In this document: piece by piece, positions 42,557 to 59,502 of the stretch | How the letters are laid out: each line of letters opens with the position of its first letter | Numbering within the stretch: position 1 is the first letter of the stretch | NCBI GenBank assembly: GCA_012838345.1 | Contig: DUPK01000078.1 | Coordinates: forward strand, 1 to 64,000 | From: Clostridiales bacterium | GTDB lineage: Bacteria > Bacillota > Clostridia > Oscillospirales > Oscillospiraceae | Direction of reading: 5' to 3' | DNA: 64,000 nt | Made by a program: the position numbers and the translations under genes | The notes under the pieces: model-generated | Told to the model about the DNA's origin: nothing | Databases searched by the model: none | Seen by the model: only the letters and a program-made list of their open reading frames with translations

Positions 42557-44617
42557 TTATTGATTTTGCATTGCCTTGGCTTCCTCGATTATCTTTGTCT
42601 GGATATGGGGAGGAGTCTCCTCATAACGGACAAATTCGAAGGTAAAGCTACCTCTGCCCTGGGTCATGCTGCGAAGGTCGATTGCGTAGCTGCCCATTTC
42701 GGCCATCGGCACCTCGGCCTCGATAATCTGCGTGCCGGAAGGAGCGGGATTCATGCCCAGAACTCTGCCGCGGCGCTTGTTGAGGTCGCCTATTATATCA
42801 CCCGTGTAGCTGTCCGGGATTGTAACCTTAAGCGAACCGATGGGTTCCAGGATTACGGGGTTTGCCTGAGGCAGACCTGCCTTATAGGCAAGGGCTGCGG
42901 CAATCTTAAAGGCCATTTCGGAGGAGTCAACATCGTGATAGGAGCCGTCAACCAGCGTAGCTTTGAGGTTGACAACCGGGTAACCGGCGAGTACGCCTTC
43001 AGTCATACTCTCGCGCAGACCCTTTTCGACGGCGGGATGGAAGTTCTTCGGAACGCTTCCTCCGAAAATCTTCTCTTCAAATATCAAATCCTCGGAGTCG
43101 CCCGGCTCAAACTCTATCCAGACATCTCCGTACTGGCCGTGACCGCCGGTCTGCTTCTTGTGGCGGCCCTGAACCTTAACTTTCTTTCTTATCTTCTCGC
43201 GATATGGCACTCTGGCTGTGCTCAGCTCAACATCGACGCCGAACTTTGACTTCAGCTTCGAGCAAAGCACGTCGAGATGAATATCGCCGGCGCCGGACAG
43301 CACCATCTGGCGCGTCTCAGAGTTGTTTACAACCGTGAAAGTGGGGTCTTCATCAGCAAGTCTGGTAAGACCTAGGGAGATTTTATCCTCCTGCCCCTTG
43401 ACCTTGGGCGAAATCGCCATGGAGTAGCAGGGCGGCTGGAACTCTATTCCCAGGAGTTTTACGGGGCGCTTCGGGTCGCAGAGCGTGTCGCCAGTCTTGG
43501 TATCCGAGAGCTTTGCAACCGCGCCGATGTCTCCGCAGCCGATTTCCTTGACCTCTATGCTCTTTTTGCCCTGCATTACGTAAATATGGCCCATCTTCTC
43601 GGTAGTTCCCGTCCGCGGGTTGAGAAGCGTCATATCCGCGGTGACCTTGCCCGAAACTACCTTGAAGAAGCTGAACTTTCCGTATTGGTCGGCAAGCGTC
43701 TTATAAACGATGGCGCAGGCGGGAGCCGAATCGTCCGCGGCAACCTCCGTCTCACCGTCCTCGGAAATCTCGGGCTTTATATCCTTGGGAGAGGGCAGCA
43801 GGTGCACTATGGCGTCCAGAAGCACTTCGGTGCCAATGCCGCTGAGCGCACAACCGCAGAACACAGGGAACAGGCTTAATTCCTTTACGCCTATGCGTAC
43901 GCCCTGAATTACCTCTTCGACCGTGAATTCCTCGCCGGAGAAATACTTCTCCATGGCCTCTTCGCTGGTCTCGGCGACGCACTCATACACAGCGGCGGAG
44001 AGGTGCTCAATCTCATCCTTCATATTCTCGGGCACGGTAATCTCAACCCTCTTGCCCTTCTCCATGGAATAGGCCTTGCGCAGTATAAGGTCATATATAC
44101 CCGTAATGTTGCCGGAGGCGTCCTTAATCGGAACTATACAGGGACATATGGAGGTGCCGAACTTTGCGCGCAGCTCCTCATAGGCGGTTTCGTAGTCGCC
44201 GTTTTCCTCGTCAATCTTGGATATATAGAAGAACCTGGGCTTCTTTGCATCTTCGAGGGCTTTCCAAGCCTTTTCTGTTCCGACGCTTACCGCGCCCTTT
44301 GCGGCGCAAACGATAATGCCGCTGTCGGCGACGCGCAGAGCCTGCGCCACTTCGCCTGCAAAGTCATAATAGCCCGGGGTGTCAAGTATATTAATCTTAT
44401 GTTTCTCATGCTCTACGTGCATTGTGGAAAGGGAAATAGAAATTTTACGCTTAATTTCCTCCGGGTCATAGTCTCCTACTGTGTTCCCGTCCGCTACCTT
44501 TCCAAGTCTGTCGGTTGCGCCCTTGAGGTAAAGCATGCTCTCGGCAAGGCTCGTTTTTCCGTTGCCGCTGTGGCCCAAAAGGCAGATGTTGCGGATTTTT
44601 TCCATAGAATAGCTCAT
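42557..44617 (-). CDS. EF-G-like translational GTPase (FusA2 type)
   Basis: A 686-aa elongation factor G paralogue. G1 reads GHSGNGKTSL, G3 DTPGYYDF and G4 SKID. Canonical EF-G has DTPGHVDF, whose histidine activates GTP hydrolysis; here it is tyrosine, as in other EF-G-like paralogues of Clostridia and actinobacteria. All later domains are present, including VQGRHKKQTGGHGQYGDVW (domain IV) and the C-terminal domain V. A regular fusA gene is not in the window. The role of this class is unsettled (recycling, stress or tetracycline-like protection have been proposed for members). ATG at 44617. Confidence 0.9.
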   Translation of the reverse strand: MSYSMEKIRNICLLGHSGNGKTSLAESMLYLKGATDRLGKVADGNTVGDYDPEEIKRKISISLSTMHVEHEKHKINILDTPGYYDFAGEVAQALRVADSGIIVCAAKGAVSVGTEKAWKALEDAKKPRFFYISKIDEENGDYETAYEELRAKFGTSICPCIVPIKDASGNITGIYDLILRKAYSMEKGKRVEITVPENMKDEIEHLSAAVYECVAETSEEAMEKYFSGEEFTVEEVIQGVRIGVKELSLFPVFCGCALSGIGTEVLLDAIVHLLPSPKDIKPEISEDGETEVAADDSAPACAIVYKTLADQYGKFSFFKVVSGKVTADMTLLNPRTGTTEKMGHIYVMQGKKSIEVKEIGCGDIGAVAKLSDTKTGDTLCDPKRPVKLLGIEFQPPCYSMAISPKVKGQEDKISLGLTRLADEDPTFTVVNNSETRQMVLSGAGDIHLDVLCSKLKSKFGVDVELSTARVPYREKIRKKVKVQGRHKKQTGGHGQYGDVWIEFEPGDSEDLIFEEKIFGGSVPKNFHPAVEKGLRESMTEGVLAGYPVVNLKATLVDGSYHDVDSSEMAFKIAAALAYKAGLPQANPVILEPIGSLKVTIPDSYTGDIIGDLNKRRGRVLGMNPAPSGTQIIEAEVPMAEMGSYAIDLRSMTQGRGSFTFEFVRYEETPPHIQTKIIEEAKAMQNQ

Positions 44618-44983: not shown

Positions 44984-47146
44984 CTAGTATTTGCTCGTCA
45001 AGCCCGAAAGGAAGAATATGGGTATAAGCCAGGCAGTCATGAACATTAGAGTATTTGAGGCTGTGGCGGCCTCAAAAGCTCCCTTTTTGCACATCAGGAA
45101 CATGATTACAAGACCCAAAATTGCCCCCAGCAGCGAAATCACGGCTCCAATATAAACCGCCGTCTGAAGGCTCCTGCCCCCCAGGATAGTCTGCACATAA
45201 GGGGCGAGCCCCTCCCTGAGAACAAGGGCCGTGGGCTGCTTCTTTCTCTCCGGCGGCTCCGACAGCCTGTAACGCTCGGAGTACGATAAAACCTCTATGC
45301 ACTCTGCCCTGTCTGAAGGTATTTTGAACTTCTGCTTGAGCATCATCGTTGTAATGTTGAAGTCGCGTATCGCGAAAAGCGATAGTATTTTTCTTGTGAG
45401 AATGGTCATAAGCGCCGACTGGACGGAACCTATAGGATTATAGTTTACAAGGAAAACGCCCGAGAGCCTGTCGTTGATAGCGCAGAATATGGCGTTTTTG
45501 ATGTTCAGATTCTCCTGCAGGCGAATTCCCATCAGGTTCATAAAGCCCGACGAGCCGACTAGGATACGGTCGGACCCGACAAGTCCCGACAGCCCTCCGC
45601 CTTCATAGCAGGCAAAATCGTCCACCGGCAAAACGTGGCACCTCTGTGCCCTCATATATTCGGCAAAGGTATCCGAAAGCCCCGAGCCGGACCTGATTAT
45701 TAAGCTTCCCGTACATGATATTAGCCTGTCTCTGGAGACTTTCGAGAGAACGGTCACGCCGCTTATTGCGAGCGTTCCGGGCGGGAAAAGGTCCTCGTCC
45801 TTGATTACAAGCCCTATGGCCCCGCCGCAGTCGCATGCCCCCTGCCAGCCGGCAAGCGCGGCTCCCGCCGCGGACAGGCGCTTTGCAAGCGTCTTAAAGG
45901 GGTGCCCGAACACCAGCAGCAGCGAAAATGGAGCGCACACCGAGCTCATCGCCGCAAAGCAGCGGAAAAACCAGGTCACCCTGCCCGTTCCCAGGGAAGC
46001 TACCAGCGACAGGCCTAAAGAGCCCAATACAAGCAGCGGAGCTATGTAAATACACAGCTTTTCGGTGAGCGTCCGCCTGTGGGCGCGCGTCACAAAGCCC
46101 CTGGAGCTGTCGCGGTTCTTTATGAGGACGCACCCCCCCTCTACCCTGTCGTTCTCAACCGAAACACAATAGGGGTAGGAGCCCGCCGAAGCGACCCTGA
46201 AGGTCAGCATATAGCCCCTGGCGGTCTTGCAAGCGCCGAGCATGGCAAAGAACATGGAACAGGCTGCGACCGCGCAGAAAGGCATACCCTTTTCAAAGGC
46301 CCTGGTTATCGCAATATAAGCAGCATCCATCAAAGATGCGATGCAGGCTACGCTCACTAGGGTTTCGGCGCTTGCCTTAATAAGCACAAGGTCCCGAATA
46401 CCCGCCCAGAGTATATCGTAGCCGAGAACCACCACGATAAAATCGGCAATCAGAACCGTGAGCGTAAGTGCAAAGGGATTGCTAGAAAGTATCTGCGGGA
46501 GAGGAAGCCCGAAATCACCGGCGAAGACTATGTAGGCCAAGATAAGACATAACGGCGCTGCAAGCACGCAGCGCCTCTTTAAAGAGTGCGCCTTCGCACC
46601 ATATGCCCTGTATACAGCCTTTAAGTTCGGCTCGTCCTCGGGTATTTCCTCGTCCGGGTCCAGGGGCTCCCGGTATGGCTCCTCGGTCAATTCGTCTTCA
46701 CTCTCGGGCACATATTCTTCCGTATGAGGCTTTTTCTTCCTCCTGCGCCCGAAAAGCCCAAGCTCTTGCGGATTCTCCTCCCGCCCTTCCCCGTCCTCGG
46801 ACTCAGGCGTGCCATCGCGTATGTGCCTTATTTTGGGCGGCTCGTACTTTTCCCTGGACCTACTTTCCATCTCCTCGAAGTACTCGCCTATTTCGCGCGT
46901 GATTATCTCCTTTGCCGCTTCCTCGACTGATTTTTCGGGCGCCGCGGCCCGAAACTCCAGAATTTCCGCCTTTTTGGGAGACTCGGAAGCTCTCTCCTCC
47001 CCTATGATTTCTTCGGCACGGGAGTGTGTTTCCTGGGCCGGCGGATTACTTTCGTCAGCGATATGCGCATTGCCCTTGTATTCCGCCAGTATATCCTCAA
47101 GGGAGTAGTTATCTTCTCTTCTCCCTTTATCCATTTGTTCGGACAC
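44984..47146 (-). CDS. degenerate P-type ATPase-like membrane protein
   Basis: A 720-aa protein with no obvious name. Residues 1-165 or so are acidic and disordered. Then come membrane pairs (about 195-250 and 270-310), a third pair (about 365-420), a cytoplasmic region (about 425-650) and two C-terminal helices. Order and similarity recall a P-type ATPase: SSVCAPFSLLLVFG stands where the CPC helix lies, GGAIGLVIKDEDLFPPGTL where DKTGT should be, LSGLVGSDRILVGSSGFM matches the nucleotide-domain stretch, and IFCAINDRLSGVFLVNY matches the segment before TGD. The phosphorylated Asp (DKTGT), TGD and GDGxNDxP are all absent, so it cannot pump by the usual cycle. GTG at 47146 has the best ribosome site. 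Confidence 0.72.
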   Translation of the reverse strand: MSEQMDKGRREDNYSLEDILAEYKGNAHIADESNPPAQETHSRAEEIIGEERASESPKKAEILEFRAAAPEKSVEEAAKEIITREIGEYFEEMESRSREKYEPPKIRHIRDGTPESEDGEGREENPQELGLFGRRRKKKPHTEEYVPESEDELTEEPYREPLDPDEEIPEDEPNLKAVYRAYGAKAHSLKRRCVLAAPLCLILAYIVFAGDFGLPLPQILSSNPFALTLTVLIADFIVVVLGYDILWAGIRDLVLIKASAETLVSVACIASLMDAAYIAITRAFEKGMPFCAVAACSMFFAMLGACKTARGYMLTFRVASAGSYPYCVSVENDRVEGGCVLIKNRDSSRGFVTRAHRRTLTEKLCIYIAPLLVLGSLGLSLVASLGTGRVTWFFRCFAAMSSVCAPFSLLLVFGHPFKTLAKRLSAAGAALAGWQGACDCGGAIGLVIKDEDLFPPGTLAISGVTVLSKVSRDRLISCTGSLIIRSGSGLSDTFAEYMRAQRCHVLPVDDFACYEGGGLSGLVGSDRILVGSSGFMNLMGIRLQENLNIKNAIFCAINDRLSGVFLVNYNPIGSVQSALMTILTRKILSLFAIRDFNITTMMLKQKFKIPSDRAECIEVLSYSERYRLSEPPERKKQPTALVLREGLAPYVQTILGGRSLQTAVYIGAVISLLGAILGLVIMFLMCKKGAFEAATASNTLMFMTAWLIPIFFLSGLTSKY

Positions 47147-47174
47147 GCTAACCACTCCCCCTGTCTCATTTTAT

Positions 47175-47927
47175 TTATTGCCCTTTTCTCTGTCTGACGG
47201 CCTCGTATAGAAGTATCGCGGCGGATGTGGAGGCGTTGAGAGAGGATATTTTCCCGAACATGGGGATGCCGATTTTGAAGTCGCAGCTTTCGCTGACAAG
47301 CCTCCCCATTCCCCTACCCTCCGAGCCGATGACTATGGCGGAGGCACCCTTGAAATCGGCGTCCCACAGCCTTGTGTCCCCGTCGGCCGCGGTGCCGAAC
47401 ACCCATACGCCCGCCTTCTGAAGCTCCTTTATGGCCGCCGTAATGTTGGAAACCCGGGCAACGGCGATATGCTCCACGGCACCGGCGGAGGTCTTAGAGA
47501 TAATGGGCGTAACTCCGGCGCTGCGGCGCTTTGGGACTATTACACCGTGCGCCCCGGCGCACTCGGCGGTCCTGATTATCGCGCCGAGATTGTGAGGGTC
47601 GGAAATCTCGTCGCATATCACGATAAGCGGTTTTTCCCCCCGCTCCTCGGCAATTTCAAGTATATCGCCAACCGTCGAGTACTCGCGCACCGCCGCCAGA
47701 GCGATAACGCCCTGATGCGAGTGCGTCACGCTCATATAGTCGAGCTTGCGCCTGTCGGCGTCCACAACGACGATGCCCTTCTCCCTCGCCTTGGCGGCAA
47801 TGTGTCTAAGCGTTGAGTCGGTGTCGCCACGCGCAATATATATTTTGTCAATCGGGCGCCCTGTGCGCAGCGCCTCTATCACCGCGTTTCTGCCCTCTAT
47901 GAGGCCCTCGCGTTTATCGTCAGTCAT
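47175..47927 (-). CDS. rlmB: 23S rRNA 2'-O-ribose methyltransferase (RlmB/TrmH family)
   Basis: A SPOUT-fold 2'-O-methyltransferase of 250 aa. An N-terminal substrate-binding domain (about 8-85, EGRNAVIEALR) precedes the catalytic knot with motif 1 DEISDPHNLGAIIRTAE, motif 2 IVIGSEGRGM and motif 3 IPMFGKISSLNASTSAAI, all intact. RlmB modifies G2251 of 23S rRNA. It overlaps the upstream ligase-like gene by four bases and is followed by the ATPase-like gene 28 bases on. ATG at 47927. Confidence 0.93.
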   Translation of the reverse strand: MTDDKREGLIEGRNAVIEALRTGRPIDKIYIARGDTDSTLRHIAAKAREKGIVVVDADRRKLDYMSVTHSHQGVIALAAVREYSTVGDILEIAEERGEKPLIVICDEISDPHNLGAIIRTAECAGAHGVIVPKRRSAGVTPIISKTSAGAVEHIAVARVSNITAAIKELQKAGVWVFGTAADGDTRLWDADFKGASAIVIGSEGRGMGRLVSESCDFKIGIPMFGKISSLNASTSAAILLYEAVRQRKGQ

Positions 47928-51972: not shown

Positions 51973-52830
51973 TTGAAATTTATTATCCGCGCGGTGGACA
52001 GGTTCTGTGCAAAGCACCCGCGTTTCGGCATACCCAATCTCATGCTCTATATCATCATAGGCAATGCCGTAGTCTATCTGTTTTCAATGATGGACAGAAC
52101 CGGACTTTTTCTGGATTATCTCTACTTTATACCATCAAGAATAGTGGCGGGAGAAGTCTGGCGCCTTATAACCTTCATGTTTATCCCGAAGGGCGGAAAC
52201 ATCCTTTTTGTAGCTCTGTTTTTATACTTCTACTACTTTATCGGCAGCACTCTGGAGAGAACCTGGGGCAGCGGCAAGTTCACAATCTATTATTTTGCCG
52301 GCGTGATGTTGAACATAATCTACGGCTTTTTGGTTTGGATTATTACGGGTTTGCCTTCCATTACGATAGGGCTTGACGCGCATTATATTAATCTCTCCAT
52401 GTTCTTTGCCTTCGCCACAATCTATCCCGAAACCAGGGTTCTGCTTTTCTTCTTTATCCCGATAAAGATAAAATGGCTGGCCCTTCTAAACGGGCTGTAT
52501 TTTCTTTATACCTTCGTGGTTGCACGATTCCCCCTAAACTTCATGCCGCTGATTGCCATCCTCAATTATCTGATTTTCTGCGGCGAGGACCTCGCAAGAA
52601 CTCTGCAGCCGATGAAATACCGCATGTCAAGGCAGAACATGAGCTTCAGGTCTAAGGCAAAAAAGGCCGAAAAGCAGAGCATTTCAAGCGCATACAAGCG
52701 CAAATGCGCAGTCTGCGGCAGAACCGACGAGGATTATCCGAACCTTGATTTCAGATATTGCTCACGCTGTGAGGGTTACCACTGCTTCTGTGAAGACCAT
52801 ATCAACAACCATGAACACTTTAAAGAATAA
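51973..52830 (+). CDS. rhomboid-like membrane protein with C-terminal zinc-binding tail
   Basis: A 285-aa protein: a six-helix rhomboid-like membrane domain (about 20-215) and a cytoplasmic C-terminus with a zinc-finger-like motif, CAVCGRTD near 249-252 and YCSRCEGYHCFCEDHINNH near 268-285. Helix signatures of rhomboids remain (WRLITFMFIPKGG; LERTWGSGKFTIYYF; LNYLIFCGED), but the catalytic GxSG serine and the helix-6 histidine are absent: the equivalent helices read YINLSMFFAF and PLIAILNYL. So it looks like a pseudoprotease. Start TTG at 51973 behind GGAGGAG. A MarR-family gene follows 145 bases later. Confidence 0.8.
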   Translation: MKFIIRAVDRFCAKHPRFGIPNLMLYIIIGNAVVYLFSMMDRTGLFLDYLYFIPSRIVAGEVWRLITFMFIPKGGNILFVALFLYFYYFIGSTLERTWGSGKFTIYYFAGVMLNIIYGFLVWIITGLPSITIGLDAHYINLSMFFAFATIYPETRVLLFFFIPIKIKWLALLNGLYFLYTFVVARFPLNFMPLIAILNYLIFCGEDLARTLQPMKYRMSRQNMSFRSKAKKAEKQSISSAYKRKCAVCGRTDEDYPNLDFRYCSRCEGYHCFCEDHINNHEHFKE

Positions 52831-57162: not shown

Positions 57163-59502
57163 TTATGCACGTTTTTGCAGCAAAACTGTAAGTACCGTCA
57201 TATCATCGTCCTGGCCGTACTTTTCTATGGCCTCCTCAAGCAGTTTGAGCGCAAGCTCCCTCGCGCAACCGCCATCATATCCGGCGGCGCTTTTTACCAG
57301 CCACTCGTCGTCGAGGGGATTTGCGACCCCGTCGCTTGCGATTATAGTATAGTCCCCTTCCTGTAAAACCAGCCTTATGCAATCAGCACTGCACACCCCT
57401 TCAAGGCAGAGCCCCGCAGCCAGCGCCTCACCCGTGTAACGCCTCACATCACCGCCGCGTTTTAAATAGGACGGTGCGGCGCCATACTTATAAATTCTTG
57501 CCTCGCCGCTGAAAAGGTCTATGCTCAGCAAATCTACGGTCATGCAGAGCGTCCCGTCGCTGTTGCGAACGAGTATCACGGAATTAAGTATTTTAAGCGC
57601 GGTTTCCGGCTCTATCCCCGCGCGCAGGAAGCGCTCAAGGAGCTTGAGCGCGTTTATGCTCTCGCGGGATGCCCTCTCGCCCGTGCCGCAGCCGTCGGAG
57701 AGTATGACGTACAGTATTCCCTCGTCGGATTTAAAATAGGTTCCGCTATCCCCGCTGACAGTCTCCCCCTTTTTCCGGGCTGAGGCAATGCCCACAGAGG
57801 CTGCAAAGGGCTCGGCCTCCATCAGCACCATTCGCCCGTTAGCCCGTTTCTCGGCTATGTTTTCGCAAAGGCGCACCCCTATGGCGGCCGAGAGCTTGTT
57901 TAAACCCTCGGGGTCGTTTGCGATTTCGGGGAGCCTCGTGCTTCTTATTTCAACATGAAGCCTTCCTCGGCTGTCCCTGAAAACAGAGGTCTGCGCGTCG
58001 ATATTTACGCTCTTTAAGTACTTTTGCAGCTTGTATTCAAGCGCTGGGCTGCCCCTCATCTCGGCGCTCAGCTCTCTTGCCACGCTTTTAAGCACGGTCG
58101 CCAGCTCCTCGTACTGGCTGAATAAAACAGACTGGTTGTCAATAATCCGGGCCTTGAGCTGCCTTTTATAAACAAGGGCCTTGAGCTCCTCGTTCGCGGC
58201 TTCGACAAACTGGTCAAGTTTAGGGCATCTTTGGGCAAAATAGGGCGGAAAGTCTTCCCTCATCAGCTGTCCGCGCTCCAGCATTTTGGGCGTTGCGTCG
58301 TTCATCGCGTTTGCGGTGTCGGTATAGTCCCTGTTCCAGCAGCGCATGGATGCCCTGCACTTCCTGCAGACTTTCTCCGCCGCCGCGTCGAAAACGACGC
58401 CGATGTCCCCATCCAGGGGGCCGTCTTCAAGGCTGTCTCTCATGCTCTCATAGACCTCACGGAAGGCAAGCGAGGCCTTCTCAAGCTTTGACGCGGCATA
58501 CGAGCGCACCCCGCTTGCGCTGCCGGAGCCGCCCCCTCCCGCAAATGCGGCGCCCCAGAAAGCCAGTCGCTTCGTGGGAATAAGCATAAACACCACGGTT
58601 GCGATAAAGGTTTCGTACAGTGCGCCCAGATTTATGGGCAAATCCCAGCGCCACAGAACAGCCGCAGCGTTTGCCACAATATACGCCAGGACGAAAAACA
58701 GCTTGCCCTGCTTGTGGAACACGCCCGAAATCAGCCCCGAAAAGGCATAGACCATACTGAAAAACGGCCTGCCCGACCCAATATCCATTGCAATTCCCAT
58801 GGCCGTTCCCGTCCCGGCGCCGGCAAAGACCCCGCCGCTGTAACCGGCCACAAGCACGATGAAAACCGCGGCCGTCCTGCCAAGGGATATTACGTCAAAC
58901 CGGATTCTCTGGGCGGTAATCAGGCAGCAGCCAATCAGGAGCAGCATGCTCACCGTGTGGCGCATCTCGCCGTCGCTTTTGTCCTTCCCTCCCCAGGGCG
59001 AAAGGGCAATTTTAAAGAAATACGCGGCGCCGCCAATGAGTATAGTTTCCGATATGTACATGGTTATGCTCAGAATCCTCCAGCCCTCGTAAGCGGTGTA
59101 GACAATTCCTATACACCCGGCTATAAACGCGGCTGCAAGCGGCATTGCCCATTCCATGGTGATGACCTTCGTACCGCGGAACGTGAAAGCAACGGCGTAA
59201 ACGAGGAGTGATATGGCTATATATTTCACGGCGTTTTCAAAGCTGTTAAATATCAGATAACCCGATATGACGCCGAGAAGGCAGGATATTCCCTCAACAC
59301 CCGAGCCGGAAGAGGCGGTGATGGCGGCCCCGAAGGGCACATAACCTCCCAAAATCTTCGCTCCGGAGAGCAGCGCGCCAAGTATAAATCTCACGATGCA
59401 CTCTATGCTCTTTATGACAAAGGGGCGCTGAAAAGCAATCTCTCCCCGGCTTACTAAATCGCAACGGAGCCTGCCCACTTCCGCTTTAACCTGCTCAAGC
59501 AT
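57163..59502 (-). CDS. spoIIE: stage II sporulation protein E (serine phosphatase)
   Basis: SpoIIE dephosphorylates the anti-anti-sigma factor SpoIIAA to release sigma-F in the forespore and acts at the polar septum. The 779-aa protein has about ten N-terminal helices (to about 330), a linker with CRKCRASMRCW, and a C-terminal PP2C phosphatase (about 560-779) with VILSDGCGTGE, IIASDGVAN and GQDDDMTVLTV carrying metal-binding aspartates. Length is a little below the Bacillus enzyme (about 827 aa). Its presence shows a spore-forming background. GGGGGAG stands before the ATG. copA is divergent. Confidence 0.97.
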   Translation of the reverse strand: MLEQVKAEVGRLRCDLVSRGEIAFQRPFVIKSIECIVRFILGALLSGAKILGGYVPFGAAITASSGSGVEGISCLLGVISGYLIFNSFENAVKYIAISLLVYAVAFTFRGTKVITMEWAMPLAAAFIAGCIGIVYTAYEGWRILSITMYISETILIGGAAYFFKIALSPWGGKDKSDGEMRHTVSMLLLIGCCLITAQRIRFDVISLGRTAAVFIVLVAGYSGGVFAGAGTGTAMGIAMDIGSGRPFFSMVYAFSGLISGVFHKQGKLFFVLAYIVANAAAVLWRWDLPINLGALYETFIATVVFMLIPTKRLAFWGAAFAGGGGSGSASGVRSYAASKLEKASLAFREVYESMRDSLEDGPLDGDIGVVFDAAAEKVCRKCRASMRCWNRDYTDTANAMNDATPKMLERGQLMREDFPPYFAQRCPKLDQFVEAANEELKALVYKRQLKARIIDNQSVLFSQYEELATVLKSVARELSAEMRGSPALEYKLQKYLKSVNIDAQTSVFRDSRGRLHVEIRSTRLPEIANDPEGLNKLSAAIGVRLCENIAEKRANGRMVLMEAEPFAASVGIASARKKGETVSGDSGTYFKSDEGILYVILSDGCGTGERASRESINALKLLERFLRAGIEPETALKILNSVILVRNSDGTLCMTVDLLSIDLFSGEARIYKYGAAPSYLKRGGDVRRYTGEALAAGLCLEGVCSADCIRLVLQEGDYTIIASDGVANPLDDEWLVKSAAGYDGGCARELALKLLEEAIEKYGQDDDMTVLTVLLQKRA

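Follow-up and report, generated by a model that had tools for sequence, protein, structure and literature searches.

The minus strand of the window (the whole stretch of 64,000 nucleotides that was analysed) carries at 44984..47146 a gene for what we call a pseudo-P1B ATPase. The longest open frame runs from a GTG at 47155 to a stop at 44984 and encodes 723 amino acids, but the GTG at 47146, which is preceded at a distance of about 9 nt by a Shine-Dalgarno-like GGGGGAG, is the likely start, so that the protein would comprise 720 amino acids. Residues are numbered here on the 723-residue frame, so that 3 is to be subtracted for the likely start at GTG 47146. Directly upstream lies rlmB (47175..47927, minus strand; TIGR00186, 3.6e-68), and downstream, after a gap of 366 nt, follows a gene for an EF-G paralogue (42557..44617, minus strand; NF009381, 2e-270). 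The protein falls into two parts of opposite character: residues 4-177 are acidic and hydrophilic (predicted isoelectric point of 4.5, 52 D/E versus 26 K/R, GRAVY of -1.49) and the core is basic (predicted isoelectric point of 9.3) and hydrophobic. Two further genes of the window are recorded here as separate observations. A Rhomboid-like membrane protein (51973-52830, plus strand) scores below the Pfam cut-off and shows no GxSG active-site motif when its sequence is read unaligned; of 121 neighbourhoods of pseudo-ATPase genes, 45 contain a relative of it, which in most cases lies just upstream and on the opposite strand. A SpoIIE-like sporulation phosphatase (57163-59502, minus strand), which reaches 355 bits against an NCBIfam equivalog cut-off of 491 bits, adjoins copA.

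Searched singly, the window protein gives no Pfam match at E<=1, and its pairwise match with the CopA protein of the window is weak (BLASTP E 4e-4). An alignment of 26 homologues matches the same CopA over 415 columns with an hhalign E of 6.8e-14, which bears out the original prediction that the protein keeps the order of membrane pairs and several nucleotide-domain stretches of P1B ATPases. The family profile also matches solved P1B ATPases in the PDB (best E 1.9e-7), and 14 of the 26 family members match TIGR01525. An AlphaFold2 model of the core (residues 175-723), generated from the family alignment without templates, has a mean pLDDT of 90.3 and a pTM of 0.86, and P1B ATPases take the first 14 places among the Foldseek matches in the PDB (best E 1.3e-15), the predicted fold thus being that of a P1B ATPase. 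TM-scores to these PDB structures are moderate (0.44-0.57), as would be expected if domains have been lost or shifted. In its fold, its membrane-helix order and the insertion of a P/N headpiece between M4 and M5 the protein conforms to the P-type ATPase superfamily. The profile matches together with the P1B matches in Foldseek lead us to reject chance resemblance, and on the evidence of profiles, models and relic motifs the protein is a P1B-type (CopA-like) ATPase by descent.

Hydropathy, model helices and the profile match place the equivalents of MA, MB, M1 and M2 in residues 178-309 (46228..46624, minus strand, as are all features of the gene given below). The remnant of the actuator domain, residues 325-350 (46106..46183), lacks TGE and has shrunk in the full-length AlphaFold2 model to a beta-hairpin of two strands (residues 329-338 and 341-348). 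Residues 367-417 (45905..46057) correspond by alignment to M3 and M4, the third and fourth helices of the core, and contain no CPC by the motif scan; the protein closes with the helices that correspond in the full-length model to M5 and M6 (residues 651-722; 44990..45205). In this model the core reaches a pLDDT of about 94 and residues 1-170 are of low confidence.

P-type ATPases are defined by a phosphorylated aspartate. A motif scan of the window protein confirmed that DKTGT, TGD and GDGxND, reported missing in the original prediction, are indeed absent, and found neither TGE nor CPC. In the family, none of the 121 members read contains DKTG, TGE[SP] or GDGxND, and the loss of DKTGT is accordingly complete (121/121); of the 18 matches that score best outside the order (L165-L182), 16 carry the three catalytic motifs and two are partial frames. 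Ungapped alignment with HMA4 and conservation identify a DxDLFP motif at the place of DKTGT (residues 453-458; 45782..45799). The site mostly reads [T/D/K]-D-x-D-L-F-P in the family, with position 452 (T, D or K) opposite the phosphorylated Asp of HMA4 and D453 opposite its Lys; in distant families, in which the site is variable, the Asp stands one position earlier. We do not favour a restored DxD of HAD phosphatases as an explanation of DxDLFP, since D453 aligns with the Lys of DKTGT and none of the other HAD motifs has survived. Where TGD would stand, the alignment shows RDFN (residues 597-600; 45356..45367), or T-x-D-P-N in distant families, with D598 kept in 52 of 54 members, and the GDGxND segment is deleted from the family alignment. 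The N-domain retains a GGG...VLVGSSGFM stretch (residues 518-541; 45533..45604), recognised by profile alignments and conservation, whose glycines G521 and G534 are kept in 53 and in all of the 54 members, respectively. Relics are more numerous in distant families, one example being GNRELM in the N-domain. In the alignments with CopA and the PDB proteins we see no His where the P1B HP motif would have it. Even a loose form of the CPC metal site, [CST]P[CH], occurs anywhere in the core in only 2 of 121 members. Taken together, these comparisons give good support to a dead enzyme, which would have lost phosphorylation, dephosphorylation, ATP hydrolysis and the CPC metal site early in Oscillospirales. 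The conservation of D453, D598 and N600 around the old active site suggests, then again, that some binding capacity may be left in the headpiece.

The family is conserved throughout the order. We searched a broader family profile across 295 Oscillospirales genomes, 226 of which count as good genomes. At 1e-15 it matches in 292 of the 295, but since active P1B ATPases can approach this score, the count was restricted to E<=1e-40, at which the family is present in 220 of the 226 good genomes. Among the relatives that bear a name are Sporobacter termitidis, Papillibacter cinnamivorans and Flavonifractor. The six good genomes with no match at E<=1e-40 are G275, G027, G063, G090, G104 and G133, of which G027 carries an N-terminal fragment of the gene at a contig end. 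Elsewhere in the class no score is better than 4e-17, and those loci that were read encode normal P1B ATPases. The position behind rlmB, pointed out in the original prediction, proved to be conserved: by direct tblastn, 110 of 111 loci have rlmB immediately upstream on the same strand, at a median gap of 28 nt. Downstream, an EF-G paralogue is frequent and lies no more than 3.5 kb away on the same strand in 58 of 106 loci. The core, with a dN/dS between congeners of about 0.11 and 0.14 (dS of 1.3 and 0.8, respectively), is under purifying selection.

The N-terminal region behaves differently along its length. Congeners are 77-81% identical in the core, 43-49% in the linker and 92-100% in a tip motif, YSLEDILAEY (residues 17-26; 47078..47107), which is defined by pattern match and order-wide conservation and coincides with a short helix at residues 19-27 of the full-length model. 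The acidic linker that follows (residues 27-170; 46646..47077) evolves fast, and its pLDDT is mostly below 50. Disorder of the N-terminus is thus supported by pLDDT values below 50 for residues 1-16, 27-39, 57-76 and 96-166 in the full-length AlphaFold2 model, in line with the long acidic, disordered N-terminus originally predicted. The consensus of the motif in the family is [FY][ST][LVI][DE]xILAE[FY], near the start of the acidic N-terminus. A matrix trained on Oscillospiraceae recovers it at a shuffle p<=0.01 in 24 of 31 proteins, most of them from other families, and it is found in distant family proteins even though these are only about 17-25% identical overall. As we read the sequence, the motif helix would be amphipathic, with the hydrophobic positions on one face and acidic residues between them, and the S/T..E/D of the motif would fit a helix cap. 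A scan of the window genome with the pattern DDILAE came out empty because the gene reads EDILAE.

The motif is not confined to the pseudo-ATPase. A strict DNA pattern gave 30 matches versus 0 for the control in 295 genomes and a looser one 80 versus 9 in 81 genomes, and most of these matches are the pseudo-ATPase gene itself. The motif nevertheless occurs above chance in unrelated membrane proteins, where it occupies a terminus and is set off by a disordered linker. Matches in EF-Ts, an ABC1/UbiB-like kinase, a Mur ligase, sigma factors and a transposase were judged unrelated by reading, and because some matches are of this kind only motifs at the termini of membrane proteins were counted. 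One case is LspA (signal peptidase II), in which the motif stands at the extreme C-terminus of 14 of the 29 proteins read, in a set that consists of the closest relatives of one tailed LspA and in which the frequency of tails is therefore biased; the LspA of G581 is a fifteenth with the motif. The motif itself was not built into the set of 29, because the search query had been cut before it. Tailed LspA proteins occur in at least 15 genera of Oscillospiraceae; they are LspA by TIGR00077 with a normal Peptidase_A8 domain and carry long, low-complexity, disordered C-terminal tails which end in the motif (L254-L265, L267 and L268, and L209:3856-4833 on the minus strand), as in the two examples ...YDLDDILAEFRDNP and ...FDIDSILAEFKD. 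What they share with the pseudo-ATPase is the motif, which in LspA terminates a disordered cytosolic tail; their membrane fold is unrelated.

Two single cases come from the genome G108. An ABC-2 polysaccharide-export permease (galactan/Wzm-like; L247:3427-4734, minus strand) has the motif at its N-terminus, a disordered region of 180 residues which opens with xSDKFSIDDILAEIG, and a membrane protein without a family match (L364:2850-3869, minus strand) has a disordered C-terminal tail that ends in ...YDIDDILADIEKRHH. The latter resembles a degenerate signal peptidase by eye, an identification that we dropped as it has no support in the domain libraries. By established topology, P1B ATPases and ABC-2 permeases have their N-terminus, and LspA its C-terminus, in the cytosol, and therefore the motifs of these proteins lie on the same side of the membrane. 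In the window genome the motif patterns match the pseudo-ATPase only and LspA has no tail, so that a hub shared by these proteins is not visible there.

A second group of dead P1B ATPases, found in genus g3 only, carries the same kind of arm. It comprises L304 (L284:1038-2924, minus strand; G036:C9) and L305 (G151:C23), which have NKTGT and SLSGT, respectively, in place of DKTGT, contain neither TGES nor GDGxND, and bear the motif (SYDLDDILREY and EYDLEEILKED) together with an acidic linker. A tree of 46 P1B cores unites the rlmB-linked family in one clade (SH-aLRT of 100) and places the second group in another P1B branch, its nearest NCBIfam types being those for Zn/Cd. A common origin of both groups is rejected by the AU test (p of 0.009), with long branches as a caveat, and because of these branches it is only provisionally that we read the two groups as having separate origins. 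Should this hold, dead P1B cores bearing the same arm would have arisen on two occasions, and this would speak for a function of the design of arm plus anchor. A P1B-like ATPase with DKTGV for DKTGT and no GDGxND (L306; G242:C1:1092972-1094153) is nearest to the second group in the tree, and its sequence may represent another step of decay.

What might a P-type ATPase do that lacks the phosphorylated aspartate? We believe that it probably is a catalytically dead membrane anchor which docks via its flexible arm to a hub of envelope biogenesis. A P1B-type ATPase would have lost its pump chemistry and become a membrane anchor, whose cytosolic arm consists of a long, disordered acidic linker that evolves fast and, near its end, an amphipathic helix motif that stays fixed. 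This motif may dock into a groove of a hub protein that LspA, the ABC-2 export permease and the second dead P1B ATPase would reach by the same means, and the pseudo-ATPase, as either the anchor of the hub or one of its clients, would keep the machinery of envelope biogenesis at the membrane and transport nothing. Where the original prediction had proposed a sensor, scaffold or regulator, the evidence now leans to docking or scaffolding, since the N-terminal motif is common to other envelope proteins. More tentatively, and with somewhat less confidence than we would need to prefer it, we propose a general scheme in which an Oscillospirales hub recruits envelope proteins by one acidic helix motif carried on disordered tails, the pseudo-ATPase is its order-wide client or anchor, and at least two P-type ATPases, one rlmB-linked and one of Zn/Cd type, were converted to this end.

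The main rival of the docking anchor is a ligand sensor, whose P/N headpiece would bind nucleotide, phosphate or metal without hydrolysis and whose arm would signal to a cytosolic partner. The near invariance of D598 and G534 across the order, the persistence of the N-domain glycines and the clustering of Asp453/Asp455 with Arg597 at the former active site by alignment all speak for it; however, the GDGxND segment is gone, the HP His is not seen in place and the first site varies in distant families, and we consider a sensor unlikely. Less likely still is a regulatory partner, a dead subunit that forms a complex with an active P1B ATPase or another transporter and tunes it. Such a role would agree with the retained P1B membrane-helix order and with the frequency of active P1B ATPases in the same genomes, but the neighbours are rlmB and the EF-G paralogue rather than a transporter, in some of the genomes that carry the gene the search turned up no second P1B match, and the motif shared with LspA points elsewhere. 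We hold in equally low regard a residual channel, scramblase or lipid-binding protein, in which the membrane part would move or hold a substrate without ATP: a full P1B-like helix set is under purifying selection, yet CPC and the other motifs of the metal site have been lost, and in the family alignment we could make out no conserved polar pathway. Finally, a decayed copy of a metal pump might be seen in the loss of all catalytic motifs, but this pseudogene reading is ruled out for practical purposes by frames that are open nearly everywhere, by order-wide orthologues behind rlmB, by the core dN/dS of about 0.11-0.14 and by the uniformity of the DKTGT loss. Neither of the two findings that the original prediction had named as fatal to it, an unrelated fold or homologues with intact DKTGT, was made.

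An order-wide family that is under selection without any catalytic motif implies that the P-type fold can retire to a non-pump role in bacteria. The shared tip motif provides a handle on a possible cell-envelope hub in abundant gut bacteria of little-studied cell biology, and the tails of LspA hint at a spatial organisation of lipoprotein processing in these bacteria. The family also holds a warning for annotation, as the window protein has no Pfam match and some relatives score weakly as metal ATPases.

In comparison with known systems, the pseudo-ATPase has the helix order and the P/N headpiece fold in common with P1B ATPases such as CopA, ATP7B and HMA4 (TIGR01525) and keeps the G-x-G and VLVGxxxFM stretches of their N-domain. 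It differs from them in that it lacks DKTGT, TGES, TGD, GDGxND, CPC and the HMA domain, has a hairpin for an actuator domain and has gained a long acidic arm with a tip motif. A text search of the literature, in which few subscription papers were covered, found no description of an inactive or pseudo P-type ATPase in bacteria, in agreement with the original prediction, which knew of no described inactive P-type family of this layout. The nearest precedent is TMEM94 (ERMA), a human P-type-ATPase-like protein, for which we know of no tip motif. It resembles the pseudo-ATPase in having a P-type-like architecture without TGES, and a structural study found no ATPase activity (PMC12134183), whereas another group reported TMEM94 as an active Mg ATPase (PMC13322241). 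Different from the pseudo-ATPase, it is a eukaryotic ER protein, is most like the SPCA Ca-ATPases and keeps a candidate Asp (D417), and its relation to the family is no closer than the superfamily. What we rate as most novel is the docking-type motif; a dead P-type fold in bacteria we rate as a variant of the pseudoenzyme theme. For the way in which such a motif may work, the ligands of the GpsB adaptor, which are arginine-based and located on peptidoglycan synthases, offer a comparison. In Bacillota GpsB binds cytosolic mini-domains of several envelope (wall) enzymes (PMC6335420). The likeness is one of working principle and not of kinship, namely that several membrane clients meet on one adaptor, and the pseudo-ATPase motif differs in that it is acidic and amphipathic and is carried by proteins other than the clients of GpsB.
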